Virus record (IMG/VR): IMGVR_UViG_3300009184_000050
Span: 1 to 59,329 of that record
DNA: 59,329 nt
Strand: one strand, 5' to 3'
Source: a virus
Below are positions 1-49,166 of this stretch, in pieces. A model generated the notes under the pieces. It saw nothing but the letters and a program-made list of their open reading frames with translations. It was not told the origin of the DNA and did no database searches. Within the stretch, counting starts at the first letter, position 1. The number at the start of each line of letters is the position of its first letter. A program made the translations under genes and the position numbers.

Positions 1-323
1 GCTACACCTTGCTTGCCGTACATATCAAGCATTTGTCTAATATAGAAAGCATAAAATTGTGGACGTTCATTATATTCCATTTCACCAAGGACTGTTTTTA
101 ATGCTGCTATAGCATCAGCCGGTGTCCCCCCAAGCATTATTCTTAATGCTCTAGTAACAAGTCGGTCAACTCTTTGTGAACTTTCCGCTACCTCTTGTTC
201 GGGTTCAGGTTCTTCACCTTGAGCGGATTTAGCAATAAACTGCTGAGGGGTCATTATTTGAATGCCTTCGGCAGCACCGGGTAATTTTGGAACAGCCCCT
301 TCGTATAACTCTTTGAGGTTCAT
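1..323 (-). CDS. Unknown phage protein, 3' part cut by window edge
   Basis: An open frame reads leftwards from ATG at 323 to the window edge without a stop, giving at least 107 residues. It begins MNLKELYEGAVPKLPG and has an acidic Gln/Glu stretch around residues 35-45. The rest looks helical, with a run rich in Leu, Ala and Arg. I do not recognise the family. The first eight residues fit the [L/I/F]-x-E leader (LYE then G) shared by several proteins in this window. It lies 6 bases downstream of the next minus-strand gene, so the two are probably co-transcribed. Confidence 0.75.
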   Translation of the reverse strand, partial: MNLKELYEGAVPKLPGAAEGIQIMTPQQFIAKSAQGEEPEPEQEVAESSQRVDRLVTRALRIMLGGTPADAIAALKTVLGEMEYNERPQFYAFYIRQMLDMYGKQGV

Positions 324-329
324 GATTCT

Positions 330-776
330 TTATTTCCTATTTCTCTGTATAAATTGTTCAGCCAACATAACCAATTCGTGTAGTTCTTCTATGCTCTCAC
401 AATGCCATCTACGCAAACTTTTATTTATATTGCTATTTGGGTCACGGGCTGTTTTGGCACTGGTACGATGTTTCTTCATGCCCTTCATTCTTGCACAGAA
501 ACTCTTTCTGCGCTTGGCATCTTTACTGCCTTTTTTGAGTTTGCTTGGTTTGGTAGTTACCGCTGTTTGAATCTTGCTGCCAGGATGTTCCCTACGATAT
601 ACACTGACGCTTTTCTTACTCATTCCACCAACACGCTTGTGGTTGTGTTTGGCCCAAGTCTCCCCTTCCGCTACACTTTCACTTTTTGGCTTCTTTCCAG
701 CTTTTTTCATGGCAATAGCTATGGCAGCTTGTTGTGCAGGACTACTAGCTTCAGATATGATTTCGGCTAATCTCAT
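330..776 (-). CDS. Conserved basic phage protein of unknown function
   Basis: 148 residues, very rich in Lys/Arg. The N-terminus MRLAEIISEASS fits the leader motif (ISE then A, cleavage-like Glu at residue 9). Residues about 85-125 carry a Cys/His-containing basic block (SFCARMKGMKKHRTSAKTA, later RRWHC) that I recall as common in phage proteins of DUF6321 type; that assignment is from memory. The strong positive charge and leader would suit an internal, DNA-associated virion protein, but this is inference. It is divergent from uvsE, whose promoter overlaps its upstream region. Confidence 0.8.
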   Translation of the reverse strand: MRLAEIISEASSPAQQAAIAIAMKKAGKKPKSESVAEGETWAKHNHKRVGGMSKKSVSVYRREHPGSKIQTAVTTKPSKLKKGSKDAKRRKSFCARMKGMKKHRTSAKTARDPNSNINKSLRRWHCESIEELHELVMLAEQFIQRNRK

Positions 777-794
777 GATGTTTCCATAAAATAG

Positions 795-823
795 TTGACT
801 TTATTGTGTAAACGTGATACACT
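795..823 (+). promoter_or_regulatory. sigma70-like promoter for uvsE
   Basis: -35 TTGACT (795-800), 17-bp spacer, -10 TACACT (818-823). The ATG of uvsE follows only 4 bases after the -10 box, so the transcript would be leaderless or nearly so. Confidence 0.6.
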
Positions 824-827
824 AATT

Positions 828-1889
828 ATGTATTTATCACTTTGGACTTTTAAATTGACAAATCAATCTATCAAACGTATCGGCTTTGCCTGCAAATTTT
901 CAGAAATCAACAAGAAAGGGGAAATCTCTAGCGTTGAAGGGCTTAACACAGGTGGTACTACACTTACCTTTCTCAAAAAAGTAAAGCGTGAGGTAGCCGA
1001 ACAAAAGATGTGGGATGTAATGGAAAAGAACATTACCAATACCCACAATCTTGTTAAGCGTGTTGCCACACTAGATCCTGCTCTAAAAATGGTCAGGCTA
1101 ACTAGTGATATGATGACTGGGTATACACACGGTGATTGGGAATACTTTTACAAACAAGGTGATGTTCGTAGGCGTATGGAACAACTTTTTGCGCCAATTG
1201 GTGAAACGGCAAGAGCAAATGATGTAAGACTTTCTTTTCATCCAGGACAATTTACAGTTCTCGCAAGTGCTAGTGAAGAAATCATAAATAACTCTATAAA
1301 GGAATTTGAATATCATGTTGACATGGCTAGGTGTATGGGATACGGCAAGGAATTCCAAAACATTAAAATCAACGTACACATCTCGGGTAAACGCGGTCCC
1401 CAAGGTATCAAAGACGTGGTTGGACGTTTATCCCCCGAAGCAAGAAACTCAATTACCATCGAGAATGACGAAATCTCATGGGGTATCGAGGCTAGCCTAG
1501 AGTTGGTAGATACCTGTGCTTTGGTCTTAGACATACATCATCATTGGGTAAAAACAGGCGAGTATATTAACGCAAATGATCCACGTATTCAAAAAATTAT
1601 TGATAGCTGGCGTGGTGTTAGGCCTACTCTTCACTACTCTGTTAGCCGTGAAGACTATCTTATTAATCATGCCCGAGACACCCTACCCAATTATAATGCA
1701 CTAATTGAATCGGGTAGTAATAAACAAAAACTTAGGGCTCATTCCGAATATTATTGGAATGATGCGGTCAATGATTGGGCACTCAGCCACTGGGAATGGG
1801 CGGATGTTCTTTGTGAGGCAAAAGCAAAAAATCTTGCCTCATTTAAGTTATTTGACTATGCTAAAGAAACGATGGGTTCCATTTCTTAA
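828..1889 (+). CDS. uvsE: UV damage endonuclease, UvdE/UvsE family
   Basis: 353 residues. UvdE enzymes are metal-dependent TIM-barrel endonucleases that nick 5' of UV photoproducts. Signature segments are present: IGFACKFSEIN near residue 18, LSFHPGQF near 136 (metal-binding His), ITIENDE near 216, LDIHHHW near 237 and the basic RAHSEYYWN near 307. The ATG at 828 is preferred over an in-frame ATG at 795, because 795 lies inside the -35 box of the apparent promoter. No ribosome-binding site is visible. The 3' end overlaps a convergent homing-endonuclease gene by 42 bases. It probably repairs phage DNA in sunlit water. Confidence 0.9.
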   Translation: MYLSLWTFKLTNQSIKRIGFACKFSEINKKGEISSVEGLNTGGTTLTFLKKVKREVAEQKMWDVMEKNITNTHNLVKRVATLDPALKMVRLTSDMMTGYTHGDWEYFYKQGDVRRRMEQLFAPIGETARANDVRLSFHPGQFTVLASASEEIINNSIKEFEYHVDMARCMGYGKEFQNIKINVHISGKRGPQGIKDVVGRLSPEARNSITIENDEISWGIEASLELVDTCALVLDIHHHWVKTGEYINANDPRIQKIIDSWRGVRPTLHYSVSREDYLINHARDTLPNYNALIESGSNKQKLRAHSEYYWNDAVNDWALSHWEWADVLCEAKAKNLASFKLFDYAKETMGSIS

Positions 1890-6675: not shown

Positions 6676-7134
6676 ATGAATAAAACACTAATCGCTAAGA
6701 CAGTGATTAAAAATCAATATTGGGTAATCACTGATGGTGAAAAGAAAGTTGGTAATGTAACGGCTGAAGATTCAGGGTTCAATTTAAAATTAAATGGTAA
6801 CAATCATTTTTTTAAAACTACCAACGATATTAAAAAATATACCCTAATTGAATTTGAATCACTAAAAACTAATGTCAAGTCTGACTTACCTTTTTATAAC
6901 TTTCCAACTCCAGCTAAGTTTTATAATTCTATCTTAGATATTAAACGTAAATTACATTTGTTTACCAAAACTAAAAAAAGCAAATGTTACTATGCGGCTG
7001 GCTGGTTCGTTATCAATCAACTTCAAGAAAACGAAGTAGTATTTTGTCCTAAATACATTTTTGTCCAACGGTATAAATATATAGGACCTTTTTTTACTAA
7101 AGATGAAGCAGAAAACTTGATAAATACCTTATGA
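6676..7134 (+). CDS. Conserved phage protein of unknown function
   Basis: 152 residues. Beta-rich N-terminus (KTVIKNQYWVITDGEKKVGNV, split by charged turns), then a central helix and a C-terminus ending GPFFTKDEAENLINTL, which resembles the closing repeat-like motif seen in several small aquatic-phage proteins. No function recognised. ATG directly follows the RNase H stop, and the stop overlaps the next start (ATGA). Confidence 0.8.
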   Translation: MNKTLIAKTVIKNQYWVITDGEKKVGNVTAEDSGFNLKLNGNNHFFKTTNDIKKYTLIEFESLKTNVKSDLPFYNFPTPAKFYNSILDIKRKLHLFTKTKKSKCYYAAGWFVINQLQENEVVFCPKYIFVQRYKYIGPFFTKDEAENLINTL

Positions 7135-7334
7135 TTCAAATTAAAAGATTTATTGAAAAAGTTTCATTAGTTGAAAGTAAACAGAGCAGAGATGTTGTGA
7201 TTCCTATCGGGGAAGCTAGGATTCTACGTGATGAACTAGCCAGCATTCTTGTTGATTTGTATAATAAAAACAATGAGAGAAAAGATTCAACAGAAGAAAT
7301 TAAAATAGAGATTAAGGGCGGCAAGTTTAAATGA
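7131..7334 (+). CDS. Small unknown protein with leader-like N-terminus
   Basis: 67 residues. MIQIKRFIEKVSL fits the shared leader pattern (FIE then K). The body VIPIGEARILRDELASILVDLY is a probable amphipathic helix, followed by a charged tail. Starts inside the upstream stop (ATGA) and its stop overlaps the next start the same way, so it belongs to the RNase H operon. Confidence 0.7.
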   Translation: MIQIKRFIEKVSLVESKQSRDVVIPIGEARILRDELASILVDLYNKNNERKDSTEEIKIEIKGGKFK

Positions 7335-7630
7335 GTAGGACTAAACCCAAAGTATTAATGGAGATAGTAGATAAAACTACATATAAGTGTGATCAAATTG
7401 TAGAAGCATTTGGTATTTGGGCCGTATTTTACGATAATCAACCTATTAATTTTAAATCACAACATTACTTAGATAATGAAGCCACGCCTAAATACAAAAA
7501 AACAAGTTTCTCTAATCCAGGTCATGCTAGAAATTTATGTCGTAGATTAAATTCACAGTTTAAAACAAATTTGTTTACTGTAGTGTTTATGAATTCAGGG
7601 ACATGTGTTTACCCAGATGACTCCACGTAA
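7331..7630 (+). CDS. Small unknown phage protein
   Basis: 99 residues, no recognised domain. Features seen are GIWAVFYDNQPINF (beta-strand-like) and a basic segment HARNLCRRLNSQF. Both ends overlap neighbouring genes, typical of translational coupling. Confidence 0.7.
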   Translation: MSRTKPKVLMEIVDKTTYKCDQIVEAFGIWAVFYDNQPINFKSQHYLDNEATPKYKKTSFSNPGHARNLCRRLNSQFKTNLFTVVFMNSGTCVYPDDST

Positions 7631-8033
7631 ATCTATTAAACAGTATATTACAGAGGCTGTTCTAGCAGAAATACCTAAACACTTGTTTAATGATAGTGAG
7701 TTGCCAATAGACCAACTTATATTTAAATGGTGGTTAACAGGAAGACAAGAAGGTCTTAGACTAAAAGAAGAGGGTTTAGCCGCATTTTTATTAGCAGAAA
7801 TAGAATATTATGAATATGACTTGCTAGCACCTGCAGGTCGATGGCATGAGTATTTGTTAGAATTAAATAAAAAAATCAAATGTCCGTACTATATTGATGC
7901 AAATAGAAAACATCCAACTAGTGGGCTTAACGATAAACCACGCATTAAATTGTTTGATAGTAAAATTGCAATGATGGTTGGTTTATACGGTAGCATTCCA
8001 AATTACTTAGAATCTATAAAGGTGAAAAGATGA
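7617..8033 (+). CDS. Conserved phage protein of unknown function
   Basis: 138 residues from ATG 7617; an in-frame ATG at 7605 is possible but 7617 gives the leader-like N-terminus MTPRKSIKQYITEAV (ITE then A). The body is helical and acidic/aromatic (KWWLTGRQEGLRL, EIEYYEYDLL). I recall homologues in T4-like aquatic phages without a function. Overlaps the preceding gene by 14 bases and the next by ATGA. Confidence 0.72.
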   Translation: MTPRKSIKQYITEAVLAEIPKHLFNDSELPIDQLIFKWWLTGRQEGLRLKEEGLAAFLLAEIEYYEYDLLAPAGRWHEYLLELNKKIKCPYYIDANRKHPTSGLNDKPRIKLFDSKIAMMVGLYGSIPNYLESIKVKR

Positions 8034-8176: not shown

Positions 8177-8661
8177 TAATAAACACCTTCATTACGCATT
8201 CTTTTAATAAATGACAAGTATGAGCTACATATACCATAACACCTAACATGTACTGTACTGAATAGTCCTCTATCATTTATTTCAGGAAGGAAAAGAATAC
8301 TAGAAGTACTTATAGGAATAGTTCCTGGAGTAATGATTTGACCACCGCTAGCAGTAGTTGGATTGTTTTCATTGACATTATTAAACCAAAAATAATTTGG
8401 ATATAGTTTGGCTGGTTGAGTAACAATCCATTCTTGCATTTCAGTATTGATAGCATTAATCCAAAATCTTTTACCTTGTAGATATTTTGGAGTTACTTCA
8501 ATTACAGGTTGTCTAGTTCCAATATAGAGTATACCATTGACACGCCATACGTCAACCATGCAAGAATAACCGGCGTTGAATGCATTTGTAATTTGCTGAG
8601 GAGTGTTAGCCTTGTCAAAATTTTGACCATCGAAAACACCTTGATAGGATATGTATAACAT
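8173..8661 (-). CDS. Glycerophosphodiesterase-like (PLC-type barrel) protein, divergent
   Basis: 162 residues. The pattern GVFDGQN, then NTPQQITNAFNAGYSCMVDV, RVNGILYIGTRQPVIEV, and FWINAINTEMQEWI follows the order seen in phage GDPD-like proteins (SHRG start, GYDVEIDVW, GHDEP, WCHAKN). Here the usual His and Glu residues are mostly replaced, so activity is doubtful. A TAAATA box ends 4 bases before its ATG, so it should be late and leaderless. It may be virion-associated. The family call is a pattern judgement. Confidence 0.6.
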   Translation of the reverse strand: MLYISYQGVFDGQNFDKANTPQQITNAFNAGYSCMVDVWRVNGILYIGTRQPVIEVTPKYLQGKRFWINAINTEMQEWIVTQPAKLYPNYFWFNNVNENNPTTASGGQIITPGTIPISTSSILFLPEINDRGLFSTVHVRCYGICSSYLSFIKRMRNEGVYY

Positions 8662-8665
8662 CTAG

Positions 8666-8671
8666 TATTTA
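8666..8671 (-). promoter_or_regulatory. Late-type TAAATA box abutting ATG 8661
   Basis: Minus strand reads ATAAATACTAGATG: the box is followed by four bases and then the start codon. With T4-like spacing the RNA would start at or next to the ATG. Confidence 0.5.
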
Positions 8672-8781
8672 TGATTATGGGCAAAGAGTTTTTACAAACT
8701 GTCAACGGAATCTGTATCTCGCACGTTAATATATATGTAGATGCAAAAATCTACGTTTCATTTTTTATAAAGGAAAACCAA

Positions 8782-16063: not shown

Positions 16064-16282
16064 ATGAGTAAAGAAGCCATGCGTGAGGCTCTAGAGGCAT
16101 TAGAGTGGATGCGTGTGGCTTTCAAGCAGAACAGTCAAGGGCGCCAAGTTGCTGATTCGGCAATAGAAGCATTAAAAGAAGCACTTGGTCCTGAGATTAT
16201 GGAATTCGAAATACTTGACAAGTATGATGAAGTGATTTACAATACGGGAAACAATAAAGGAAATTTTACAAATGAAAATTAA
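16064..16282 (+). CDS. Small helical unknown protein
   Basis: 72 residues; AMREALEALEWMRVAF and DSAIEALKEAL give a two-helix hairpin look. Overlaps the next gene by 11 bases. Confidence 0.65.
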   Translation: MSKEAMREALEALEWMRVAFKQNSQGRQVADSAIEALKEALGPEIMEFEILDKYDEVIYNTGNNKGNFTNEN

Positions 16283-16667
16283 AGAACTTAATGAATCAAT
16301 TGACATTAATCAATTGGCCACCATTAGTGATAAAGCACTACATGATAGGTATGGTTATCCACTTAGTACTCCAAGTAAAAGCTTTGGATGGCTCGCTAAC
16401 TTAGAATCAGCAAAGGCAGCCCTTAATATTATTAAACGAGGTGCTACTAATATTGAAATTATCGCTGACGCAATTCATGATGGATGGAATATTACTGCCA
16501 TGGCAGATTATAATGGTGAATTGGATTTAGATACTCCTACACCTGATGAAAAGAAATTGAAACGATATAAGTTGGCACAACAAACTTATGCACAACTTCC
16601 TGAAGAGGAAAAAGAGAAAGACCGAGTAGTTGCTCGGGCATTGTTAAAAGCATTAAAGGAGATTTGA
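16272..16667 (+). CDS. Unknown protein with leader-like N-terminus
   Basis: 131 residues. MKIKELNESIDIN fits the shared leader (LNE then S). Residues 20-45 contain DRYGYPLSTPSKSFGW; the end KDRVVARALLKALKEI is a pattern seen in other small phage proteins. An AAAGGA site is upstream. Function unknown; packaging in the head is inferred only from the leader. Confidence 0.7.
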   Translation: MKIKELNESIDINQLATISDKALHDRYGYPLSTPSKSFGWLANLESAKAALNIIKRGATNIEIIADAIHDGWNITAMADYNGELDLDTPTPDEKKLKRYKLAQQTYAQLPEEEKEKDRVVARALLKALKEI

Positions 16668-18195: not shown

Positions 18196-19773
18196 ATGGC
18201 TATAATAAAGTTCTTCACTCTTACCAATTTCACACTATTAACAGCACTAACATTAAGTACAATAGCAGCGTGGTATAGTATTCTAGGATTAACAGCAATC
18301 TTTGCGGCTGCTGTTAATCCCGTTATTATCATGGGCGGTGCATTAGAAATATCCAAAGTTGTTACTACTGTTTGGTTGCACAAATATTGGGCTAAAGTGA
18401 AATGGGCTATGCGAGTTTATCTTGTAGCCGCAGTAGCAGCACTGGCTTTCTTGACCAGTATGGGAATCTTTGGGTTCTTAAGTAAGGCGCACAGTGACCA
18501 AAGCTTAGTTTCAGGTGACGTATCGGCTAAGATTGCAATTTATGATGAGAAAATTAAAACAGCAAGGGAAAACATAGATGTCAACCGCAAGGCGCTTAAA
18601 CAGCTTGATGAGTCAGTGGACCAAGTTATGGGTCGAAGTACGGATGAGAAAGGTGCCGATAAAGCCGTGGCTCTACGTAGGGGTCAACAAAAGGAGCGTG
18701 GGCGTCTCCTTGCTGAAATTGAAGCCGAACAGAAAAAGATTACTAGTCTTAATGAAGAGAGGGCACCCATTGCTGCCGAAGTACGTAAAGTAGAAGCCGA
18801 AGTTGGGCCAATCAAATACATAGCCGCTCTTATATACGGTGATAACCCTGATGCTAATTTACTTGAACGTGCGGTACGTTGGGTGATTATACTTATTGTA
18901 AGTGTGTTTGATCCATTGGCGTTGACTCTTGTATTAGCCGCAAATGGTAGTAGAATGTGGGATAGGGAAGAACCTAAAGTAGAAGATAAGCCCAAAGAAG
19001 AAGAACCTCAGTATGAGCCTGACCATGGTCCGTTAACTGAAGAACAAATAGAACAAATTGAAGAAACAGTAGAGAAACCCAAAATAGATGAATATGCTTA
19101 TTTGAAAAAGCCATGGACGTGGTTCACATCTGGTTCTACAGTAGGACTAGTTTCTAAGCCTGAAGAAAAACCTAAGGAAAAGCCCGAAGATATTCCATGT
19201 TTTAAATGCGGCACAACTTTATTAAATGCTCCTGGTATTGGGTTGTTCTGTCCAAATTTGAAGTGTGACGTTAGAGATGGTCCTTTTGAAGAAGAACCTC
19301 TTGAAATAGAAAAACCAAAAGAAATTAAAGAACTTGTCACTAATTCCCCATACGAAATTATTACAGACAATGTGACTTCATCTCCACCATATACCGATAT
19401 TGGCGGAGGATATGTTTCTTACGAAGGTAAATCTGTGCAAATAGATGCACTTAAACAATTGAATCCAAAATTGTTTATGATCGGAGCGGATGGTCAAAGT
19501 TCAGATAAAAAAGGATTTGGTACAGAATTTCCCAAGATAGCTAAAAAAGGAGAGGTCTTTGTGCGAGTAGATGTTCTACCAAACCGAGTCTATAAGTTTG
19601 ATGGTTCTAGATGGATTGAAATCAGCAAAACACAATCCAATACATATCTGTATGATGAGCAATATATCCAATATCTTATCTCTAAGGTTGACACGGGTGA
19701 GTACGATATTGACCTTCTTTCCGAAAACGAGAAAAGTCAGATAGAAATTTACCTACAAAAACAGCAAGGTTGA
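18196..19773 (+). CDS. Four-helix membrane protein with coiled coil and zinc knuckle
   Basis: 525 residues. Transmembrane segments lie near 12-29, 35-55, 74-96 and 227-249. Between the third and fourth is a coiled coil (115-210) rich in Lys, Glu and Arg. The soluble C-terminus has an acidic Pro/Glu/Lys linker, a CFKC...CPNLKC zinc knuckle (about 336-359) and a globular domain with VYKFDGSRWIEI. Similar proteins occur in T4-like aquatic phages without known role. A late box abuts the ATG. Possible roles (virion or lysis-related membrane scaffold) are speculation. Confidence 0.75.
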   Translation: MAIIKFFTLTNFTLLTALTLSTIAAWYSILGLTAIFAAAVNPVIIMGGALEISKVVTTVWLHKYWAKVKWAMRVYLVAAVAALAFLTSMGIFGFLSKAHSDQSLVSGDVSAKIAIYDEKIKTARENIDVNRKALKQLDESVDQVMGRSTDEKGADKAVALRRGQQKERGRLLAEIEAEQKKITSLNEERAPIAAEVRKVEAEVGPIKYIAALIYGDNPDANLLERAVRWVIILIVSVFDPLALTLVLAANGSRMWDREEPKVEDKPKEEEPQYEPDHGPLTEEQIEQIEETVEKPKIDEYAYLKKPWTWFTSGSTVGLVSKPEEKPKEKPEDIPCFKCGTTLLNAPGIGLFCPNLKCDVRDGPFEEEPLEIEKPKEIKELVTNSPYEIITDNVTSSPPYTDIGGGYVSYEGKSVQIDALKQLNPKLFMIGADGQSSDKKGFGTEFPKIAKKGEVFVRVDVLPNRVYKFDGSRWIEISKTQSNTYLYDEQYIQYLISKVDTGEYDIDLLSENEKSQIEIYLQKQQG

Positions 19774-21553: not shown

Positions 21554-22753
21554 ATGTCAATAGAAAATAAACTAAACCATTGCTCATTTTGTGGTAATCA
21601 CAAAGATGTTGTTAAAAAATTAATTGTAGGAGATTCTTCTGCAATATGTAGCGATTGCATTGAACTATGCAATGAATTAATTATTGGTGAGAATGAAGAG
21701 TCTATCATAGAGTCTGATCCTTCTCGTTACGATGCCCTTTCTATTAAAGATTATGTTGATCAATATGTTATTGGTCAGGATAATGCTAAAATGGTATTGA
21801 GTGTGGCAATCGCTAATCATTTTAAGCGAATTACATATCCACCTAAAAACTTAGAAATACAAAAAGGTAATATTCTCCTTATAGGACCAACTGGTTCAGG
21901 TAAAACACTTTTAGCAAAAACAGTTGCAAAATACTTAAATGTACCTTTTGTAGTTGCTGACGCTACTAGTCTAACAGAAGCCGGTTACGTAGGCGATGAC
22001 GTAGAAAGTATGATTACTATGTTATTGAATGCTGCCGGTGGTGATGTAAAATTAGCAGAACGCGGGATCATCTTTATTGATGAGATTGATAAAATTGCTA
22101 GAAAAAGCGAAAGCACTAGTATTACTAGGGACGTATCAGGTGAGGGTGTACAACAGGCTCTACTTAAATTAGTAGAAGGAACTGTATGCCGAGTCCCTGC
22201 AGGAGGTGGTAGAAAACACCCCGGTGGTGATATGATAGAAGTTAATACCAAAAATATTTTATTCATTGCAGGCGGCGCATATGTTGGGCTAACTGATATT
22301 ATAAAAACCAGACTAAAAGGTACTACTATTGGGTTTGGAGCAGAGATTACTAATAATGATTTTACGGCTGATTTAAATCTAGTAACCCCAGATGATCTTA
22401 CTAAATTTGGAATGATCCCTGAATTTATTGGTAGATTTACTACTTCAGTAAGCTTAACTGATTTGAATAAAGAGCAATTACTACATGTACTGACCGATGT
22501 AAAAAATAATTACATTGACCAGTATAAATACCTGTTCTCAATTGATGAAGTTGAATTGAGTTTTGATAGTTTGGCATTAGAAAAAATTGTTGACAATTGC
22601 TTGAAACTCAAAACAGGTGCTCGTGGTCTACACACTGAAATTGAGCGGGCATTGATTCCTCATATGTTTCAAATTAGTAACTATAAGAAAAATGGCATTA
22701 ATAAGATAAATATTAGTCAGGAGTTAATTGATCGCCCTAAATCTATTCTATGA
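21554..22753 (+). CDS. clpX: ClpX, ATPase/unfoldase of the ClpXP protease
   Basis: 399 residues, full length compared with bacterial ClpX (about 424). The N-terminal zinc domain has C10, C13, C32, C35. AAA+ motifs: Walker A GPTGSGKT (111-118), pore loop GYVG (144-147), Walker B IIFIDEID (172-179), RKH loop (220-222), Arg finger in FIGRFT (294) and sensor-2 GARGL (355-359). The IGF loop (259-261) that docks onto ClpP is kept, so it should still form ClpXP. It sits in an early operon after two lipoproteins and overlaps the bS21 gene (ATGA). Partner ClpP is at 26752. Confidence 0.96.
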   Translation: MSIENKLNHCSFCGNHKDVVKKLIVGDSSAICSDCIELCNELIIGENEESIIESDPSRYDALSIKDYVDQYVIGQDNAKMVLSVAIANHFKRITYPPKNLEIQKGNILLIGPTGSGKTLLAKTVAKYLNVPFVVADATSLTEAGYVGDDVESMITMLLNAAGGDVKLAERGIIFIDEIDKIARKSESTSITRDVSGEGVQQALLKLVEGTVCRVPAGGGRKHPGGDMIEVNTKNILFIAGGAYVGLTDIIKTRLKGTTIGFGAEITNNDFTADLNLVTPDDLTKFGMIPEFIGRFTTSVSLTDLNKEQLLHVLTDVKNNYIDQYKYLFSIDEVELSFDSLALEKIVDNCLKLKTGARGLHTEIERALIPHMFQISNYKKNGINKINISQELIDRPKSIL

Positions 22754-22971
22754 GTCAAAAAGGTAATAAAGTTATTGTTCAAGATGACAATGTGGAAAAA
22801 GCACTGCGTAAATTGAAAAAGAAAGTGAGTGATGCCAATTTATTACTAGACCTGCAAAATAAACAATTTTTTACTAAACCTAATATAAAAAGAAAGCTAG
22901 CCAAAAAACAAGCCGTCAAAAGATGGAAAAAATTCTTATCTAGTCAAGAACTTCCCAAACAATATTATTGA
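22750..22971 (+). CDS. rpsU: Ribosomal protein bS21 homologue
   Basis: 73 residues, the length of bacterial bS21 (about 70). The family pattern is clear: VIVQDDNVEKALRKLKKKV, then a short acidic-helix NLLLDLQNKQFFTKP and a basic RKLAKKQAVKRWKK. bS21 sits on the 30S platform near the anti-Shine-Dalgarno end of 16S rRNA and supports initiation. Phage copies are known in aquatic phages and may exchange into host ribosomes. It starts within the clpX stop (ATGA), so it is made with ClpX. Confidence 0.88.
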   Translation: MSQKGNKVIVQDDNVEKALRKLKKKVSDANLLLDLQNKQFFTKPNIKRKLAKKQAVKRWKKFLSSQELPKQYY

Positions 22972-23004
22972 CCCTAAATAGTATATTTTTTTACGAAATT
23001 TGTG

Positions 23005-23015
23005 TATACTAAATA
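23005..23015 (+). promoter_or_regulatory. Promoter region of hsp20: TATACT overlapping a TAAATA box
   Basis: TATACTAAATA combines a sigma70-like -10 hexamer (no convincing -35 at 17 bp) with a late-type TAAATA box (23010-23015). Either could start RNA just before the structured leader. Confidence 0.4.
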
Positions 23016-23017
23016 CA

Positions 23018-23082
23018 AGTGTAGATGCCGATAATCGGGTTTACACTAGTCATCTTGCTTATTTAAAAGGAGAAAACAAATG
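23018..23082 (+). promoter_or_regulatory. Structured hsp20 leader, candidate ROSE-like RNA thermometer
   Basis: Outer stem AGTGTA (23018-23023) with TACACT (23042-23047), containing a CCG/CGG inner hairpin. Nearer the gene, CTTGCTT (23054-23060) can pair with the ribosome-binding site AAGGAG (23067-23072), leaving one bulged G (23057) and a six-base loop. ROSE elements of bacterial small heat-shock genes use the same UUGCU-versus-AGGA pairing with an unusual G. Thermometer function is inferred. Confidence 0.5.
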
Positions 23083-23529
23083 ACAAATACATTATCACTT
23101 CGTTCCCTCGACATCCCTTCAATTCATAAGTTTGGTATCGGTTTCGATACAATGTTTGATGAACTTATGCGAGCAACTGCTCAACAATCTCAAACTAATT
23201 ATCCGCCTTACAATATTGTAAAGCACAGTGATGATCATTTTAGTATTGAATTGGCAGTAGCTGGATTCAAAGAAGGGGACATTGATGTTCAAGTTGAAAA
23301 AAATCAACTTACCGTTCAAGGTTCAAAATCAATTTCTATTGATAAACCAAACACTGAATATCTACATCGTGGAATTAGTGCTAGGAACTTTGTTCGCAAT
23401 TGGACTTTAGCAGATTATGTAGAGATCACCGGTGCAACTGTTGCCGATGGTATTCTAACAATTGATTTGGAGCGTAAAGTTCCTGAAGAAGAAAAGCCTA
23501 AGAAGATTGCTATTATATATACTAAATAA
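23080..23529 (+). CDS. IbpA-like small heat-shock protein (Hsp20)
   Basis: 149 residues. The alpha-crystallin domain spans about 42-135: YPPYNIVKHSDDHFSIELAV, AGFKEGDIDVQVEKNQLTV, YLHRGISARNFVRNWTL and VADGILTIDLERKVPEEEKP are all IbpA-type segments. The C-terminal IAI (143-145) is the I-x-I motif used in oligomer assembly. It holds unfolding proteins for refolding or degradation. AAGGAG lies 7 bases before ATG. Its leader may be a thermometer, and a strong terminator follows. Neighbouring clpX, clpS and clpP suggest a joint protein-quality role. Confidence 0.93.
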   Translation: MTNTLSLRSLDIPSIHKFGIGFDTMFDELMRATAQQSQTNYPPYNIVKHSDDHFSIELAVAGFKEGDIDVQVEKNQLTVQGSKSISIDKPNTEYLHRGISARNFVRNWTLADYVEITGATVADGILTIDLERKVPEEEKPKKIAIIYTK

Positions 23530-23544
23530 TATAATATAGCAACG

Positions 23545-23574
23545 TTGTGCGATACCTAAGTATCGCACAATTTT
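23545..23574 (+). terminator. Rho-independent terminator after hsp20
   Basis: 11-bp stem TTGTGCGATAC / GTATCGCACAA with loop CTAA, followed by TTTT. Confidence 0.88.
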
Positions 23575-23597
23575 ATAAACCTTTTAAAAATTTAATT

Positions 23598-23906
23598 ATG
23601 TCAAAAACCGATACCAAAGTTAAGATTAAACCTAATCTATCACTAGCAGAACCTCCACTTTTTAAAATCATTTATATCAATGATAATGTCACTTCAATGG
23701 AATTTGTAGTAACATCATTAGTAGACTATTTTGATTATACCGCTGAAACCGCACATAATATCACACTGGATATTCACGAATCGGGTAGTGCAACCGTAGC
23801 TGTTCTTCCATATGAAATTGCCGAGCAACGCGGTATTGAAGTTACTTTAGACGCTAGGGCACAAGGATTTCCATTACAGGTTAAGATTGAGGCTGATAAG
23901 AATTAA
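23598..23906 (+). CDS. clpS: ClpS adaptor, N-degron recognition protein
   Basis: 102 residues, as in bacterial ClpS (about 106). LFKIIYINDNVTSMEFVVTSL (21-41, read as two parts) and ITLDIHESGSA match the core. ClpS delivers proteins with N-degron residues (Leu, Phe, Tyr, Trp) to ClpAP. Pocket positions kept: Asn28, Asp29, Thr32, Met34, Val37 and His60. The second Asp of the E. coli NDD pocket motif is Asn30 here. Start chosen at ATG 23598, though no ribosome-binding site is evident; upstream the frame enters the hsp20 terminator. No ClpA is seen in the window, so the likely partner is host ClpA. Confidence 0.9.
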   Translation: MSKTDTKVKIKPNLSLAEPPLFKIIYINDNVTSMEFVVTSLVDYFDYTAETAHNITLDIHESGSATVAVLPYEIAEQRGIEVTLDARAQGFPLQVKIEADKN

Positions 23907-25045: not shown

Positions 25046-25082
25046 ATGTTTGCCAAATCTAATTTTATTTAACTAAAAAGAC

Positions 25083-25088
25083 TAAATA
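25083..25088 (+). promoter_or_regulatory. Late-type TAAATA box before ATG 25096
   Basis: GACTAAATACTGAACTATGCG: seven bases separate box and start codon; no ribosome-binding site fits. Confidence 0.5.
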
Positions 25089-25095
25089 CTGAACT

Positions 25096-26682
25096 ATGCG
25101 TGATTTACTAAACCTAATACAAACCCTATCAGAAGATAGTACCCTTAATCCTTCAATAATTCTAAAGCGAGGCGGTAGATTTGAAAAATTCATATACATG
25201 ATTGCCAATCAACAGCCGTTTTATACTATTGATCAAGAACCTGTTATTGCTGATCCTTCCGAAGCAGCTCGGTTTCAACAATTACATGATGATGGTAAAT
25301 TTTCAGGTACTCTTAAAATTAAATTAGAAGATGGTAGGCAAATTCCATTAAGTCACTTGTTAAAAACTTCTGATTTAGGAGGAGAGGCTAAAACAGGTGA
25401 AGAGGGTGAGACTACAGGTAAAGAATCAGCTTTATTAAAACCTTCTCAAATTAAAATCACTGATAAAGACATTCCTGCTAGTCAATTAGGAGAAACAATT
25501 ATTAATAATAGTGTGCTGCAATCTACTGATTATGGCAGATTAGTCATTGAAATGGCTGAAACTATAATGAATGGAGGCAATCCTGTTATTCCCAAAGATG
25601 TTCCTACTAAGATCAAAGAGAGTATTATTGATTACGCAGGTGAGTATTTAGGTGTACTTGCATTAGTTTCAGGCACCTCACGTTTCCCCAGAAAGAAGGG
25701 TTTTACTGAATGGTTAGGAAGTGATGTATCTGAGTTAACTATTAATTTCCCAGGTAAAGCTAATACTAACATTGCCGATAGCTACGCCAGTATTTCCAAT
25801 GACAAGACAAATCACAAAATTAATATTTCAAGCAAAGGCCAAGGTGGCGGAGCTCCTCCAAGTGTGAGTGGATTAAAAGTTCCTGACGAAATTAGAAATA
25901 ATCCCGATTATCTAGGTGCAGTAGGTTTCATTGATTTATGTGATAATGGTACTAAAAAGGTTGCCGCTAAAATATCTTTGCCTTCACCTAGGACCATTAG
26001 CTCAGTCTTTGCTGCTATGAATTTATTAAATGAAGTAGCACCCGAATCTATACCACAGAAATTTAAATCAATATTGCCTTGGGATGTTAATAAAATTACA
26101 AACGATGTTAAAGAAAGTATAGAGAACTTTAAAAAAAATGTGCAGTCATCTGGACCTAATTCATACCCAGGTAAGATGCCAGGGTATGATATATTTTTTA
26201 ATGACATTAAATTTAAAAAACCAAGTAGCGACGGTGGCAAATTAACCCATGCTGTAAAATTAGCGGTGATGAATGCAGTAAACGAAGGTCAAGCTATTCC
26301 TGAATTCCAAGAAGTGGTATTATCTATTTTAGATATGAACTTCATTCAGCAATATGCAGACTTTGACCCCAAGAGTAGAATTATGAGTTTTGCAACACAA
26401 TGGCCTGCGAAACTTGAAGGTCAAATTACACTTGAATCTAAATCAGGCGGAACTGATCCAACTAAAGGTGGATTTAGTTTTAAACTAGCAAACACCTCAC
26501 CCAAGACCGATTTAGAAGAACCAGACGAGTTAGGTACAGAAGTAGTTCCAAAGGGTGATGTTGTAGGCACTGTATCCGATTTAGCAACCTCATCAATTAA
26601 CATTGTCAATCCAACAAGAAAAGAACCAGAAGAAAAACCTAGACAAGTAGGTGATGTTGGCCGACAAAAACGCAAATCATAA
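25096..26682 (+). CDS. Large unknown protein with capsid-targeting-like leader
   Basis: 528 residues. The first 13 residues MRDLLNLIQTLSE end in the LSE motif and are almost the same as the SOD leader at 41783 (MRDIINLLE). The rest has no recognised domain. Visible parts are a Gly-rich turn SKGQGGGAPPSVSGLKVP near 245-262, mixed helical segments, and a disordered charged C-terminus (470-528). The late box abuts the ATG. Best guess is an internal head protein or a protein injected with DNA, based only on leader and promoter class. Confidence 0.75.
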   Translation: MRDLLNLIQTLSEDSTLNPSIILKRGGRFEKFIYMIANQQPFYTIDQEPVIADPSEAARFQQLHDDGKFSGTLKIKLEDGRQIPLSHLLKTSDLGGEAKTGEEGETTGKESALLKPSQIKITDKDIPASQLGETIINNSVLQSTDYGRLVIEMAETIMNGGNPVIPKDVPTKIKESIIDYAGEYLGVLALVSGTSRFPRKKGFTEWLGSDVSELTINFPGKANTNIADSYASISNDKTNHKINISSKGQGGGAPPSVSGLKVPDEIRNNPDYLGAVGFIDLCDNGTKKVAAKISLPSPRTISSVFAAMNLLNEVAPESIPQKFKSILPWDVNKITNDVKESIENFKKNVQSSGPNSYPGKMPGYDIFFNDIKFKKPSSDGGKLTHAVKLAVMNAVNEGQAIPEFQEVVLSILDMNFIQQYADFDPKSRIMSFATQWPAKLEGQITLESKSGGTDPTKGGFSFKLANTSPKTDLEEPDELGTEVVPKGDVVGTVSDLATSSINIVNPTRKEPEEKPRQVGDVGRQKRKS

Positions 26683-31686: not shown

Positions 31687-32595
31687 TTACTGGTTAATTG
31701 TGGTTGGGGCCGCGTTTCCTCTTGTTGTGGTTGAGGTTGAGGTTGAGGTTGAGGTTGATGGTCCTCTTGTTGTGGTTGTGGTTGATGGTCCTCTTGTTGT
31801 GGTTGTGATGGTTGGAGTAGGAGGTATTGGACCTACAGGCTGGTTAATTTGAGTTTTGCTGATAACCCAATAGTCAGCAGAGATTGCAGGGTTTTCTATA
31901 ACTTGATAGGGCATGTAGAAATAGCCATAGTCTCCCCAACCCGGACCCCATGAATTTCTAACTATAAACCTAGAATCTATATCACGGTAACCAACAATAC
32001 ACACTGCATGTGCACCTAATAATCTTTCTCTCCCCAAATCGGGATAAGGCATCAGCCCCGTGCTATTAATATTAAAAAAACTACCATATACATTGAATCC
32101 AACTATTACCGGATTACCTGCTGCTACAGCAGCTTTTACGGAGTTAAAGTCTACACATCTTTGATATCCTGTTACTTTACGTCTTGCAGCATCTGCATAG
32201 GCTCCTAAATTAGGTTTAATTTTAAATTTACTAATATCATGTGGCCAATAATATTCAAGTGGAGCGCCCTTTTTATTTACTACTTTTAGTCCATCACGTA
32301 TCCAAGCACCTGAATCACGATTAACTGTACCTAGTAATACACGTTCTTCATAATATATAAACAGTCTGCTTATTTCAAAATTCTTATTATAAAGTTTACG
32401 ATCAATTAATTCTATAGCACCTGCTATAGCCTGACCAGTACATGATCCTAAACTACCTTGATCTTCAATAGAACTAGCCCATCTACGTAAATCAACTAGT
32501 GGGGGTTGATTTGATATAGTTATAGAAGGGGTGTATATGTAGTCTCTAGCATCATATTTGTCACGCATTAAATGTAAACTTTGATATTTGAACAT
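31687..32595 (-). CDS. Papain-like (C1) cysteine protease with Thr/Ser-rich tail
   Basis: 302 residues. Catalytic residues of papain-type enzymes are in place: Gln46 and Cys52 in DQGSLGSCTG, His196 in GAHAVCIVGY and Asn214 in VRNSWGPGWGDYGYF. There is no obvious propeptide or signal peptide. Residues 262-292 are low-complexity TTTTRGPST repeats, like a mucin segment, and resemble the Thr-rich linker of the fibre at 47268. A late-type box and GGAG site precede ATG 32595, so it is probably late and may be carried on the virion. The substrate is unknown. Confidence 0.88.
   Translation of the reverse strand: MFKYQSLHLMRDKYDARDYIYTPSITISNQPPLVDLRRWASSIEDQGSLGSCTGQAIAGAIELIDRKLYNKNFEISRLFIYYEERVLLGTVNRDSGAWIRDGLKVVNKKGAPLEYYWPHDISKFKIKPNLGAYADAARRKVTGYQRCVDFNSVKAAVAAGNPVIVGFNVYGSFFNINSTGLMPYPDLGRERLLGAHAVCIVGYRDIDSRFIVRNSWGPGWGDYGYFYMPYQVIENPAISADYWVISKTQINQPVGPIPPTPTITTTTRGPSTTTTTRGPSTSTSTSTSTTTRGNAAPTTINQ
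31718..31812. repeat. Short tandem repeats coding the Thr/Ser tail
   Basis: Repeats of GGTTGA and TGGTCCTCTTGTTGTGG on the plus strand, coding Ser/Thr and TTTTRGPS units on the minus strand. Confidence 0.8.
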
Positions 32596-32684: not shown

Positions 32685-32858
32685 ATGATATATGATTTTA
32701 TTGAAATAGGTACTAGTAATATAGAAACTCTCATTGAACACGCTGATGATAATACCATTGGTTTGATTATGAAGAGTTCAAGGCACTGGCTCGCAGCCAA
32801 AGATTCTCCTTACCGATTAGAATTGAGCCTGATAATTAAATATATAAATAAAAGATGA
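32685..32858 (+). pseudogene. Fragment of FkbM-type methyltransferase N-terminus
   Basis: 57 residues beginning MIYDFIEIGTSNIETLIEHAD, clearly related to the start of the gene at 35680 (MHYDFIEIGTSKFSTLIEDAD). Similarity stops after about residue 27 and the frame ends at 32858. It is probably a truncated duplicate. It could still be translated, since the next gene overlaps by ATGA. Confidence 0.7.
32843..32850 (+). promoter_or_regulatory. T4-like late promoter TATAAATA before ATG 32855
   Basis: Exact TATAAATA with only four bases before the ATG; predicts a leaderless late transcript. Confidence 0.55.
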
Positions 32859-39839: not shown

Positions 39840-40460
39840 ATGAAAGTCACTGAAATTCTAAAAGAATACCGAGACGATTTGTCAAAATTAGTTATTTTTG
39901 ACATTGACGATACCCTCGTGCATACCCAAACAAAGGTGCATGTAATTAAAGACGGTCAAGTAGTTCGTAGTTTAAACAGCCATGAGTTTACACATTATAA
40001 ATTAAAAGATGGTGAACAGTTTGATTTTGGTGATTTCACTAATGCCAAAGAATTCTTTGAAAATGCTAAGCCAATCATACCTATGATGAATCAACTTAAA
40101 AGAGATATTTCTACGGGTAATAAAGTTGTCATGGTAACTGCTAGATCCGACTTTGATGACAAAGAATTGTTTTTAGATACATTTAGAAAATATGGGGTAG
40201 ACATGAGTAAAGTTCATGTTTATCGTGCAGGAAATATCAAAGACAATATTAAGATTGACGAAAAGAAAAAATTAATTATTAGAAAGTTATTAGATCAGGG
40301 AAATTATCGTAAAGCCATAATGTATGACGATTCTATTCCAAATTTAGATAGTTTTGTTACTCTTAAAAAAGAATATCCAAATACTAAGTTTTATGCTTGG
40401 AGTGTAAGCCTAGACGGTAAAGCAGGTGAGTACCAAAGAACCAACGAGCAGGTAAATTAA
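39840..40460 (+). CDS. HAD-superfamily phosphatase with leader-like N-terminus
   Basis: 206 residues. HAD motif I is FDIDDTLVHT (D21, D23), motif II VTARSD, a Lys later, and motif IV MYDDSIPN. These enzymes remove phosphate from nucleotides, sugars or nucleic-acid ends. The first residues MKVTEILKEYRDD fit the shared leader (LKE then Y). Late-type boxes lie upstream. The leader and promoter class suggest virion packaging; that is inference. Confidence 0.87.
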   Translation: MKVTEILKEYRDDLSKLVIFDIDDTLVHTQTKVHVIKDGQVVRSLNSHEFTHYKLKDGEQFDFGDFTNAKEFFENAKPIIPMMNQLKRDISTGNKVVMVTARSDFDDKELFLDTFRKYGVDMSKVHVYRAGNIKDNIKIDEKKKLIIRKLLDQGNYRKAIMYDDSIPNLDSFVTLKKEYPNTKFYAWSVSLDGKAGEYQRTNEQVN

Positions 40461-41758: not shown

Positions 41759-41790
41759 TCACGCATTAAGAATAAATACTTAATGCGTGA
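41759..41790 (+). promoter_or_regulatory. Hairpin over sodB start with late box in its loop
   Basis: A perfect 12-bp inverted repeat (41759-41770 with 41779-41790) encloses the loop AATAAATA. The right arm contains the sodB ATG (41783-41785). The TAAATA late-type box (41773-41778) occupies the loop, so RNA begun there lacks the left arm, while read-through RNA from infA would hide the start codon. Confidence 0.75.
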
Positions 41791-42337
41791 CATAATAAAT
41801 CTACTTGAGGCAAAAGCTAAACCTCAAGATATAGGAATAATTCCCCTCAACTTCACTCCCAGTGAAGTTGCACCCGTTATGAGTAAAGAAACCATTGATT
41901 TACACTTTGGTAAACTTGCCCACGGCTATGCCGAGCGTTATAATAAAGGCGAAGGTGATCCTGAATTCAATTATGCAGGGGCTTTTCTTCACAATACATA
42001 CTTTCCTCAATTTAGAGAAGTAAGAAATAATAACGAGCCCAACGGGCCTATTGCAGGATTTATCAAAAAGCATTTTGGAAACTATGAAGCTTTCCAAAAA
42101 GAATTACAAACCGAAGCAATGAAGATTCAAGGTTCAGGTTGGATTTATTTGGCATATGATGGTAAACTAAAAACTATACCAAATCATCAAGTAAGAGATG
42201 ACATACTATTACTAATAGACTGGTGGGAACATGCATTTTTATTAGATTATGGTGCAGACAAAAAAAAGTATTTAGAAAACACTTGGAAAATTATTAATTG
42301 GAACGTTATTAACACTAGATGGGGCCACTCATTATGA
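41783..42337 (+). CDS. sodB: Fe/Mn superoxide dismutase with N-terminal leader
   Basis: 184 residues. The fold starts near residue 19; residues 1-18 ([18 protein letters not shown]) are an extra leader matching the gene at 25096 and fitting LLE then A. Metal ligands are H41 (LHFGK), H70 (FLHNTYF), D146 and H150 (DWWEHA); Y49 corresponds to the gateway Tyr. Two differences from E. coli FeSOD are the His30-equivalent position (Leu) and the shifted HN order at H70. It converts superoxide to peroxide and oxygen. No ribosome-binding site; start lies in a hairpin. Confidence 0.92.
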
Positions 42338-45676: not shown

Positions 45677-46474
45677 GTGGCAATAATTAAACCTTTTATA
45701 ATTAATAATGGTCTTTCAATTGGTACCCCAACAGGGGCGACTGCACTGATTGACTCTTCAGGAAACTGGATTGGACCTAGTACTAATTTAGTTGGACCAC
45801 AAGGACCACAGGGGCCTCAAGGACCACAGGGGCCTCAAGGACCGCAAGGATCTAGTGGCCCTCAAGGACCCACCGGTCCTCAAGGAACACCGGGCGCATC
45901 AGGACCACAAGGCCCACAAGGCGCATCAGGACCACAAGGACCACAAGGCCCACAAGGCGCATCAGGACCAACTGGTCCACAAGGGCCTCAAGGATCGGTG
46001 GGACCTCAAGGACCTCAAGGACCACAAGGACCACAGGGCGTTGCAGGAACTGGTGATGTAACATTAAGCGCATTAGGCGTAGGCACACCAGCTGGCCCCG
46101 CAGGTTATATATTAGCTACAAATAATATTACATCTCTGTACTCAGATAAAAGACTAAAAGAAAATATCAAAAATATTGATAATTGTATAGAAAAAATACA
46201 AAGTATGACTGGGGTATACTTTACACAAAATAAGTTAGCTGAAAAATTTGGTTACAATGATTATAAAAAACAAATAGGACTTATCGCTCAGCAGATAAGT
46301 GCTGTTTTCCCTGAAGCGGTATCTACAGCTCCATTTGATGCAGATGACACTGGAAATAGCAAGTCCGGTGAAAATTATCTTACTATCAACTATGATAAGT
46401 TAGTACCTTTATTGGTAGAAGCTGTTAAAGAACAGCAAAAAGAGATAAAACAATTGTTGCAAAAAATAGGATAA
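45677..46474 (+). CDS. Collagen-like tail fibre with S74 chaperone, copy 1
   Basis: 265 residues, GTG start with AGGA upstream. An N-terminal motif [12 protein letters not shown]...SSGNWIGP (5-34) is shared with the next two fibres. Residues 40-124 are Gly-Pro-Gln triplets. The C-terminal S74 intramolecular chaperone starts around [10 protein letters not shown] (155-164), with Ser156 as the expected cleavage residue, and includes [19 protein letters not shown]74 domains trimerise the fibre and then cut themselves off. Confidence 0.9.
45795..46045. repeat. Short GGACCACAAG repeats coding Gly-Pro-Gln
   Basis: Nine-base units GGACCACAA or GGGCCTCAA repeat with few changes over 250 bases; a likely site of slippage or recombination between fibre genes. 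Confidence 0.9.
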
Positions 46475-46479
46475 AAATT

Positions 46480-47271
46480 GTGGCTACAAATAAAAATTTT
46501 GTAATAAAAAATGGGTTGACAGTAGGAACTACTGCTGATATTAATTCATCGGGCGTGTGGATTGGGCCTACAACAGGTTTGATAGGCCCGCAAGGTGCTG
46601 TTGGTTCTGCGGGAGCTGCAGGTCCACAAGGCCCACAAGGTCCAGCTGCACCAGGAGGGTCGGGAACAGCAGGTCCACAAGGTCCTAGAGGTCCGCAAGG
46701 CGCAACCGGTGCGCCGGGATCATCAGCGCCGGGGCCCAATGGTCCTCAAGGAGCTCAGGGACCAGCAGGAGCGATCGGTCCTACCGGGCCACAAGGCCCC
46801 GGAGGATCAACGGGGGGAACAGGTCCACAAGGGCCTACTTCACAATTACAAACATCAGTTACTTCATTAGGAGTAGGGACTGCTGCCAGCGGTACTACAG
46901 GTGAGATAAGAGCCAGTGGTAATATAACAGGTTTTTATTCAGATGTAAGATTAAAAGATAATATATCCAATATAACCGAGTCTCAACAAATTTTACAAAA
47001 ATTGCGAGGTGTATATTTTAATCAAAATGAATTTGCTGAAAAATTTGGATATCATGACCATAGTAAACAAATTGGCGTAATAGCACAAGAAGTACAAGAG
47101 GTTGTACCTGAAGCAGTTACTATAGCACCATTTGATTTAATATCTGATGTAAGTAGATCAGGTGAAAATTACCTAACAGTAAATTATTTTAAATTGATAC
47201 CTGTGATAATAGAAAGCATCAAGCTACACCAACGTGAAATAAATATGATCAAAGGACAGGTAAAATCATGA
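46480..47271 (+). CDS. Collagen-like tail fibre with S74 chaperone, copy 2
   Basis: 263 residues, GTG start. Same layout: [12 protein letters not shown]...SSGVWIGP adaptor (5-30), less regular collagen triplets (36-118) with Gly-Ala and Gly-Ser insertions, then [21 protein letters not shown] and S74 start [11 protein letters not shown] (152-162). Stop overlaps the next gene's ATG. Probably alternative or parallel fibre to copy 1. Confidence 0.9.
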
Positions 47272-49166
47272 CTACTAAAGCTATATTTGGATTTGGATAT
47301 ATTACAGGCGGCAGTCCAGTATCAATAACTAATCTAGTGTCTAGTTTTGGTGTGGTTGCTGCTGATCAAACCGAATTAACTGGTACGGCAAGATTTTGGC
47401 TTGCAGCAGCTAGCTTTGGTGGCGATCAAGCTATATTTGGATTTGGGAATGATGGCATTTCTCCAGTAGCAATTACCAATCTAGTATCTAATCTTGGGGT
47501 TGTTGCTGCTAATCAAGGCGCATTAACTGGTACGGCAAGGCAACGTCTAGCAGCAGCAGGATATGGAGGTGATAAAGCTATATTTGGATATGGTAGTAAT
47601 GATAGTAGTACTTATTATACAACAACCAATAGAGTGTCTAATCTCGGTGTTGTTGTTGCTAATGGCCAGACCGCGGGTACTGCAAGATATGGACTAGCCG
47701 CAACAGGATACGGCACTGATAAAGCTATATTTGGATTTGGGGCTACCAGCAGCTATTTCAACGTGACCAATCTAGTATCTAATCTTGGTGTTGTTGCTGC
47801 TAATCAATCCGCATTAACTGGTACTGCAAGAAGTGGTCTTGCAGCAGCAGGATACGGCACCGATACAGCTATATTTGGATTTGGGACTACCGGTAGTGTT
47901 ACCAACGTAACCAATCTAGTATCTAATCTCGGTGTAGTTGCTGCCGATACTCCAGGGGTTGGTACTGCAAGGTCATTTTTAGCAGCAGCAGGATATGGTA
48001 GTGATAAAGCTATATTTGGATATGGCCAAATAGCTAGTCTTCAGACAATAACTACTTTAGTATCTAATACTGGTGTTGTTGTTTCTGAATCTTCTGGTGT
48101 TGGTACTGCAAGGACTGGACTAGCGGCATCCGGGTATAGCACCGAAACATCAGTAACTACCACAACTACAACTACAGCAGGACCAGAAACTACCACAACC
48201 ACAACAACAGAAGCACCAACTACTACTACAACAACTACATCAGGACCAACTACTACCACAACAACTACATCAGGACCAACTACTACAACTACAACAGAAT
48301 CACCCACAACAACTACAACTACATCAGGACCAACTACTACCACTACAACAACAGCAGCACCAGGTACTACTACAACTACAACAGCAGCACCAGTACCTGC
48401 AATATTTACTCCATTTACAGTTAAAAGCGGTCTTACTGTAGGAACCATTCCAGTGATCAATTCTTCAGGAATATGGATTGGACCACGTTCAAATTTTGCA
48501 GGACCACGGGGACCACAAGGGATTCAAGGTCCACCAGGAGTAACTGGACCACAAGGTACAGGAGGGACAGGGCCTCAAGGACCACAGGGCGCTCAAGGAC
48601 CACAAGGACCACAAGGTTCAACACAGCCTTCCCCACCGGGGTCTACTGGCCCGCAAGGACCACAGGGATCACAGGGTCCACAAGGCTCTACAGGTCCGCA
48701 AGGACCACAGGGTCCAGCAGGGCAGCCTGGTCCCACTGGACCGCTAGTTAATCAAGTAAATAGTTTGGGTGTAGGGACTCCTGCTAGTGGCACTACCGGT
48801 GAAATTAGAGCTACCGGTGACGTAACTGCTTATTATTCAGATAAAAGATTAAAAGAAAATATAGTAACTATAGAAAATGCACTAGAAAAACTTAATAGAC
48901 TAAACGGTGCGTACTACTATTCAAATAAATTAGCCGAACAGTTCGGGTACATAAATAAAAAAAGACAAGTAGGATTAATAGCGCAAGAAGTTGAAGAAGT
49001 AGTACCCGAAGCTATAGCAATTGCACCGTTTGATGCTAATTTACACGGGCATAGTAAATCAGGTGATAGATATTTAACTGTAAGATACGAAAAAATAGTC
49101 CCACTTTTAATTCAAGCTTTGAAAGAGCAAGAACAACAGATTGAATATCTTAAATCTAAACTATAA
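47268..49166 (+). CDS. Modular fibre: kelch-like repeats, Thr-rich linker, collagen, S74
   Basis: 632 residues. Six units of 47-51 residues (KAIFGFG..., [12 protein letters not shown], GTARxxLAAAGYG) fill 1-294 and look like blades of a kelch-type beta propeller. Residues 294-377 are a Thr-rich linker with repeated TTTTSGP. The adaptor [12 protein letters not shown]...SSGIWIGP follows, then collagen triplets (about 408-494) and an S74 domain from [11 protein letters not shown] (about 520). The propeller is a plausible receptor- or glycan-binding head; the linker is a plausible O-glycosylation target. Confidence 0.88.
47271..48150. repeat. Six ~147-bp repeats coding propeller blades
   Basis: Units begin AAAGCTATATTTGGATTTGG or close variants at about 47277, 47424, 47574, 47718, 47868 and 48006. 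Confidence 0.85.
48160..48390. repeat. ACT/ACA repeats coding the Thr-rich linker
   Basis: Nearly all Thr codons with interruptions coding SGP, AGPE, EAP, ESP and AAPG. Low complexity in both DNA and protein. Confidence 0.9.

Follow-up and report, generated by a model that had tools for sequence, protein, structure and literature searches.

Does the protein encoded at 25096-26682 (+) start with a capsid-targeting propeptide of the kind found in phage T4, and do unrelated proteins of the same phage carry the same kind of signal? The gene lies on a 59-kb contig of a giant T4-like water phage, whose full 59,329 nucleotides were analyzed and are called the window here. In T4, internal proteins enter the head via leaders of 10-19 residues, gp21 cuts after L/I-x-E, and the residues for targeting and for processing are separable (PMC9026906). 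An earlier note on this DNA had proposed that eight unrelated proteins of the window begin with such a leader, and all eight N-termini are present as it described (↓ marks the predicted cut):

300-323, minus strand: MNLKELYE↓G, leader of a GP88-domain protein truncated by the window end; retained on the basis of homologs
750-776, minus strand: MRLAEIISE↓A, leader of a DUF6321 protein (gene 330-776); retained
7131 onward, plus strand: MIQIKRFIE↓K, the leader as first read
7617-7655, plus strand: MTPRKSIKQYITE↓A; rejected as a leader
16272-16295, plus strand: MKIKELNE↓S; a single homolog, with MKISELSE↓S
25096-25134, plus strand: MRDLLNLIQTLSE↓D, leader of a 528-aa protein (gene 25096-26682); retained as a propeptide
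39840-39866, plus strand: MKVTEILKE↓Y, start of a HAD-fold protein; closest homolog MKIIEILKE
41783-41809, plus strand: MRDIINLLE↓, leader of an Fe/Mn superoxide dismutase (SOD; gene 41783-42337); retained

The near-identity of the leaders of 25096 (MRDLLNLI) and 41783 (MRDIINLL), which sit on unrelated bodies, was likewise confirmed.

The bare [L/I/F]-x-E rule is enriched. Using gene calls that reproduce 94% of the annotated PA5oct starts, and taking the expectation from internal positions, we count 14 instances in the window of [LIF]xE whose Glu falls at residues 8-13, against 8.3 expected (p=0.04), and six against 1.8 when A/G/S follows (p=0.012). The corresponding counts in the relative G001 (335 kb) are 49 against 29.8 (p=7e-4) and 15 against 5.3. 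The anticipated enrichment is there, weakly above background, but since 8.3 matches were expected in the window against the 14 seen, more than half of the raw matches are attributable to chance and single members cannot be picked out by the motif. Raw enrichment was dropped as the sole test because its signal is too weak.

Conservation among homologs is more discriminating for single genes. A short N-terminal extension of about 7-20 residues ending in hydrophobic-x-Glu and conserved among homologs is found in 25096, 41783, 776(-) and 323(-), for which the capsid-targeting reading is well supported; for 7131 it is possible. In the 25096 family the hydrophobic-x-E is kept at 17 homologous loci, down to about 46% identity, while the leader sequence varies, and among 12 aligned sequences E13 is the sole invariant residue within the first 16. 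Residues 1-13 of the 25096 protein are predicted with a pLDDT below 50, and structure starts after them. Its fold had no match in the PDB, only uncharacterised phage proteins being matched, and the protein had no match among phage isolates. The gene has its own late promoter element:

25081-25088, plus strand: late promoter element ACTAAATA ahead of 25096, recognized by sequence and kept in homologs

Separately, noncoding sequence of four relatives (L001, L013, L126 and L148) holds a long inverted repeat, ATAGTTGACACTA...TAGTGTCAACTAT, which lies about 1 kb upstream of the 25096 homolog in L001 and L013 and is possibly an operator or terminator.

The 41783 product is, by family match (Sod_Fe_C, 1.3e-24) and ligand motif, predicted to be an Fe/Mn superoxide dismutase: the metal-ligand motif D-x-W-E-H-A is present, as DWWEHAF against DVWEHAY in solved SODs, with WEHA aligned to 1ues. 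Solved SODs start at about residue 20 of the window protein, so its leader is an extension beyond the SOD fold. Such a leader with hydrophobic-x-E occurs at 78 of 79 phage SOD loci, differing in sequence and length, and all 38 of 38 distinct leaders have the site, against 10.4 in shuffles (maximum 20). Glu and a hydrophobic P3 persist across them. P1' is frequently D, E or Q in the SOD and 25096 leaders, as against A/S at scaffold sites. TAAATA lies within 40 nt of the start at 61 of the 79 loci. The features of the gene are:

41771-41778, plus strand: T4-type late promoter element AATAAATA, recognized by sequence, 4 nt ahead of the SOD start
41810-42337, plus strand: mature part of the SOD, predicted head cargo (Sod_Fe_C 1.3e-24; alignment to solved SODs)

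Elsewhere in the window (21554-23906), genes of ClpX-like, small heat-shock-like and ClpS-like type keep the gene order of PA5oct; there the SOD gene comes directly after them.

The DUF6321 protein 776(-) may carry two sites, the second one internal:

666-674, minus strand: second predicted site VAE↓G, residues 35-37, just ahead of the DUF6321 domain, placed by junction conservation
831-838, minus strand: late promoter element GATAAATA ahead of 776(-), recognized by sequence; promoter and 5' UTR conserved in homologs

Leaders of its homologs include MRIKEFINE↓A, MKATEFINE↓D, MKTYQFITE↓T, MKTFSQFITE↓A and MRAEEFITE↓S, among others, followed by inserts that range from none to about 200 residues; some homologs are leaderless. 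Just before the domain, [LIVMF]-x-E is present in 44 of 51 distinct homologs although their upstream sequence is unrelated, giving a logo with L/V/I/M at P3, any residue at P2, Glu at P1 and G/A/S/T at P1'. Where leader and domain are directly fused, the leader Glu is the junction Glu (MKIQEVITE↓GENW, MRAEEFITE↓SAAW). Among the exceptions are short proteins beginning at the domain itself. In the complete genome record of Pelagibacter phage HTVC027P, the short DUF6321 protein lacks the junction, and S77 had no match. From its sequence pattern we read the junction as a probable protease junction; it may instead simply be a conserved part of the domain. Comparing S77 occurrence between leader and leaderless contigs was uninformative because the contigs are fragments, and S77 is present on some contigs whose DUF6321 protein has no leader.

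Separately, DUF6321 leader genes are preceded by about 70 nt of conserved sequence (GATAAATA ... CAATAAAGTCAACTATTTACGG ... ATG; window 777-838, minus strand), seen at loci L038, L042, L125, L221, L222, L226, L227, L237 and L295. At L125, in G001, this stretch sits immediately upstream of the GP88 gene, which would fit a clean loss of the DUF6321 gene.

For 323(-), a full-length homolog matches Pfam GP88, and homolog leaders read MN[LIF]xEL[YFM]E↓G; in the relative G005 the same body follows MDFRKLLDIINE↓A, an unrelated, longer leader ending in INE↓A. The site first assigned to 7131, FIE at residue 9, is not kept, its homologs having FID or FMD there. What they do keep is Glu 15, followed by S/T and with L, V or A at P3, and this moves the candidate site to LVE↓S:

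7131-7175, plus strand: possible leader MIQIKRFIEKVSLVE↓, site LVE↓S at residue 15, from homolog conservation
7119-7126, plus strand: late promoter element GATAAATA ahead of 7131, recognized by sequence and kept in homologs

The ITE of 7617 is not kept in four other homologs, and the gene was ruled out as carrying a targeting leader. Most homologs of 39840 read MRAxE[FI]QPKKLVIF, without the Glu.

The machinery that would read such leaders is seen in relatives; in the window a search for an S77 prohead protease gave no match, and no head gene was found. Peptidase_S77 and a T4-type gp23 occur together in six of eight large relatives, among them the nearest, G001. The gp23 proteins of G001, G003 and G005 bear LAE↓S at residue 43, and their scaffolds contain 9-10 [LI]xE[AS] sites (10 in G001) against 1.0-1.3 in shuffles. 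Proteins that fit a T4-like leader pattern number 5, 5 and 8, respectively, in the same three relatives, where about 0.2 would be expected in each; these counts are descriptive, since examples had been seen before the pattern was settled. The bodies behind their MRAxEF[IL]xE leaders form about 10 unrelated families; recognizable among them are an amidoligase and a LysM/GH19 chitinase-like protein, and a DnaJ zinc-finger-like protein carries a related leader.

A leader profile trained solely on environmental leaders, with T4 left out, ranked IPIII first, IPII second and the scaffold gp22 fourth among 256 T4 proteins; it missed IPI and Alt, whose site is placed differently or whose sequence is unlike the others. 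When their families were held out, the SOD and GP88 leaders were not recovered by the profile. In the T4 genome itself (NC_000866), gene 61.1 (18966-19130, minus strand; MKTFKEFIKE) and gene 2 (76061-76885, minus strand; MAIFQIINES) start with what look like capsid-targeting leaders.

Two homologs have been recorded in virions. The PA5oct SOD homolog EST35_0261 (QCG76142.1) is 44.7% identical to the window SOD, has a leader ending in SIAE↓A and is annotated ESI-MS/MS, that is, virion-detected; it is otherwise annotated as a hypothetical protein, and the papers searched gave no link between it and capsid targeting. The DUF6321 homolog SSCSM1_29 of S-SCSM1, a phage for which MS found 45 virion proteins (PMC9602691), is annotated as a virion protein. 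Contamination could account for both records. Across PA5oct, leaders are not significantly enriched among MS-detected over undetected proteins, by raw motif or by profile; the sole variant with a signal was [LIF]xE followed by A/G/S/T/D/N (p=0.005 against all other genes, 0.08 against central genes).

The SOD might be a late enzyme that simply works in the infected cell, in which case its detection in PA5oct virions is carry-over and its leader incidental. The PA5oct ESI-MS/MS flags also fall on ribonucleotide reductase, thymidylate synthase and FtsH, which may be contaminants, and Vibrio phage 2.275.O, in which S77 is present, has an SOD without a leader. An ordinary enzyme nevertheless leaves unexplained why an N-terminal extension past the SOD fold should have a fixed hydrophobic-x-E at nearly all of the loci, and we regard this account as unlikely. 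The best reading of the SOD is that it would be head cargo, carried by a T4-style capsid-targeting propeptide.

Somewhat less likely again is that the N-termini dock on the scaffold or another assembly partner and stay uncut, the conserved Glu being part of a docking helix. Docking would suit the HAD homologs, which keep MRAxE[FI] without the Glu, the D or E at P1' in several leaders, and the separability of targeting and processing residues in T4 (PMC9026906). It fits poorly with a DUF6321 junction logo that is protease-like even far from the N-terminus, and with the fact that the same phages encode S77 together with a gp23 and a scaffold bearing such sites. Least likely is a chance origin, in which [L/I/F]-x-E is simply common in short Lys/Glu/Leu-rich N-termini and the examples were picked by eye: it draws on the modest excess in the window, the loss of the site in 7617 and in 39840 homologs and the FID for FIE in those of 7131, and likely holds for 7617 and perhaps for 16272 and 39840, but it leaves unexplained the fixed Glu in the SOD, 25096, GP88 and DUF6321 families and the many unrelated proteins with MRAxEF leaders, and for the retained genes homolog conservation already refutes it.

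It is likely that 25096, 41783, 776(-), 323(-) and probably 7131 carry capsid-targeting propeptides of the T4 kind. The T4 interpretation of the earlier note accordingly holds for four or five of its eight genes, fails for 7617, had the wrong site in 7131 and is unproven for 16272 and 39840. What upholds it is the hydrophobic-x-E kept while leaders drift, the S77 protease, capsid protein and multi-site scaffold of relatives, the blind recovery of T4 IPII and IPIII, and the virion-detected SOD homolog. Targeting, packaging, cleavage and ejection in this phage are what we infer from leaders, conserved sites and predicted late promoters, along with the protease, capsid and scaffold genes of relatives. 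In the mechanism proposed, leader proteins would be made late; the N-terminal leader would attach to the scaffold core as the prohead grows and bring the protein inside, where the S77 prohead protease would cut after hydrophobic-x-Glu and the leader would leave. The mature protein would stay beside the packaged DNA, and its ejection together with that DNA may follow. In DUF6321 proteins a second, like site would free the basic domain, and the SOD would arrive as a finished enzyme.

Taken together, the leader genes show no significant enrichment of late promoters. The spacing between the late-promoter element NNTAAATA and the start codon has a sharp peak at 4-5 nt and a second hump at about 16-25 nt. 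The peak contains 29 genes in G001, 34 in G003, 16 in G005 and 6 in the window, where examples are 41771-41783, 7119-7131, 8661-8673 (minus strand) and 32843-32855; PA5oct has no such peak. Given T4-like late starts, this class would by analogy have leaderless mRNAs. Two other features of the window may be recorded. Encoded at 31687-32595 (minus strand) is a papain-like peptidase (PHROG 16701); its tail is Thr-rich, and it has its own late promoter on that strand. Three consecutive fibre-like proteins at 45677-49166 resemble one another in the C-terminal region and contain long GPQ repeats of collagen-like type, and one of them also has a Thr-rich stretch.

Among known systems, the closest are the gp21-cut leaders of T4 IPI, IPII, IPIII and Alt, which are likewise short, N-terminal, cut after hydrophobic-x-Glu and shared by unrelated cargo. 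MRAxEFIxE and MKTFSQFITE are close to the T4 MKTYQEFIAE, and relatives of the window encode S77 and gp23. Unlike in T4, the leaders here can be far more divergent (the MRDIINLLE type), targeting is predicted, and the cargo set is different and larger, with SOD, DUF6321, GP88 and chitinase-like proteins. In the giant phage SPN3US the gp245 prohead protease removes N-terminal propeptides of inner head proteins after x-x-Glu, and a targeting role has been proposed for them (PMC5694885, PMC10052503); those propeptides, however, are mostly longer than 100 residues, only two being of 20-24, and belong to another phage lineage with other cargo. T4-like cyanophages have the same C-terminal DUF6321 domain (T4-GC 119 in P-SSM2; SSCSM1_29), preceded by VNE↓G or VSE↓G, but the proteins examined are without an MRAxEF-type N-terminal leader. 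The window is a case of a known kind of signal with new cargo.

The DUF6321 junction offers a putative natural cleavage logo for these S77 proteases; the leaders themselves might serve as tags to bring foreign proteins into the heads of giant phages. If the reading is true, the N-terminus alone would suffice to place many unannotated proteins from environmental T4-like phages inside the virion, and the infecting particle would include an antioxidant enzyme borne by the phage. We see about an even chance of the broader picture, in which a widespread group of aquatic T4-like giant phages uses interchangeable head-targeting tags to load enzymes and inject them with the DNA, including an active SOD that possibly acts before phage gene expression.
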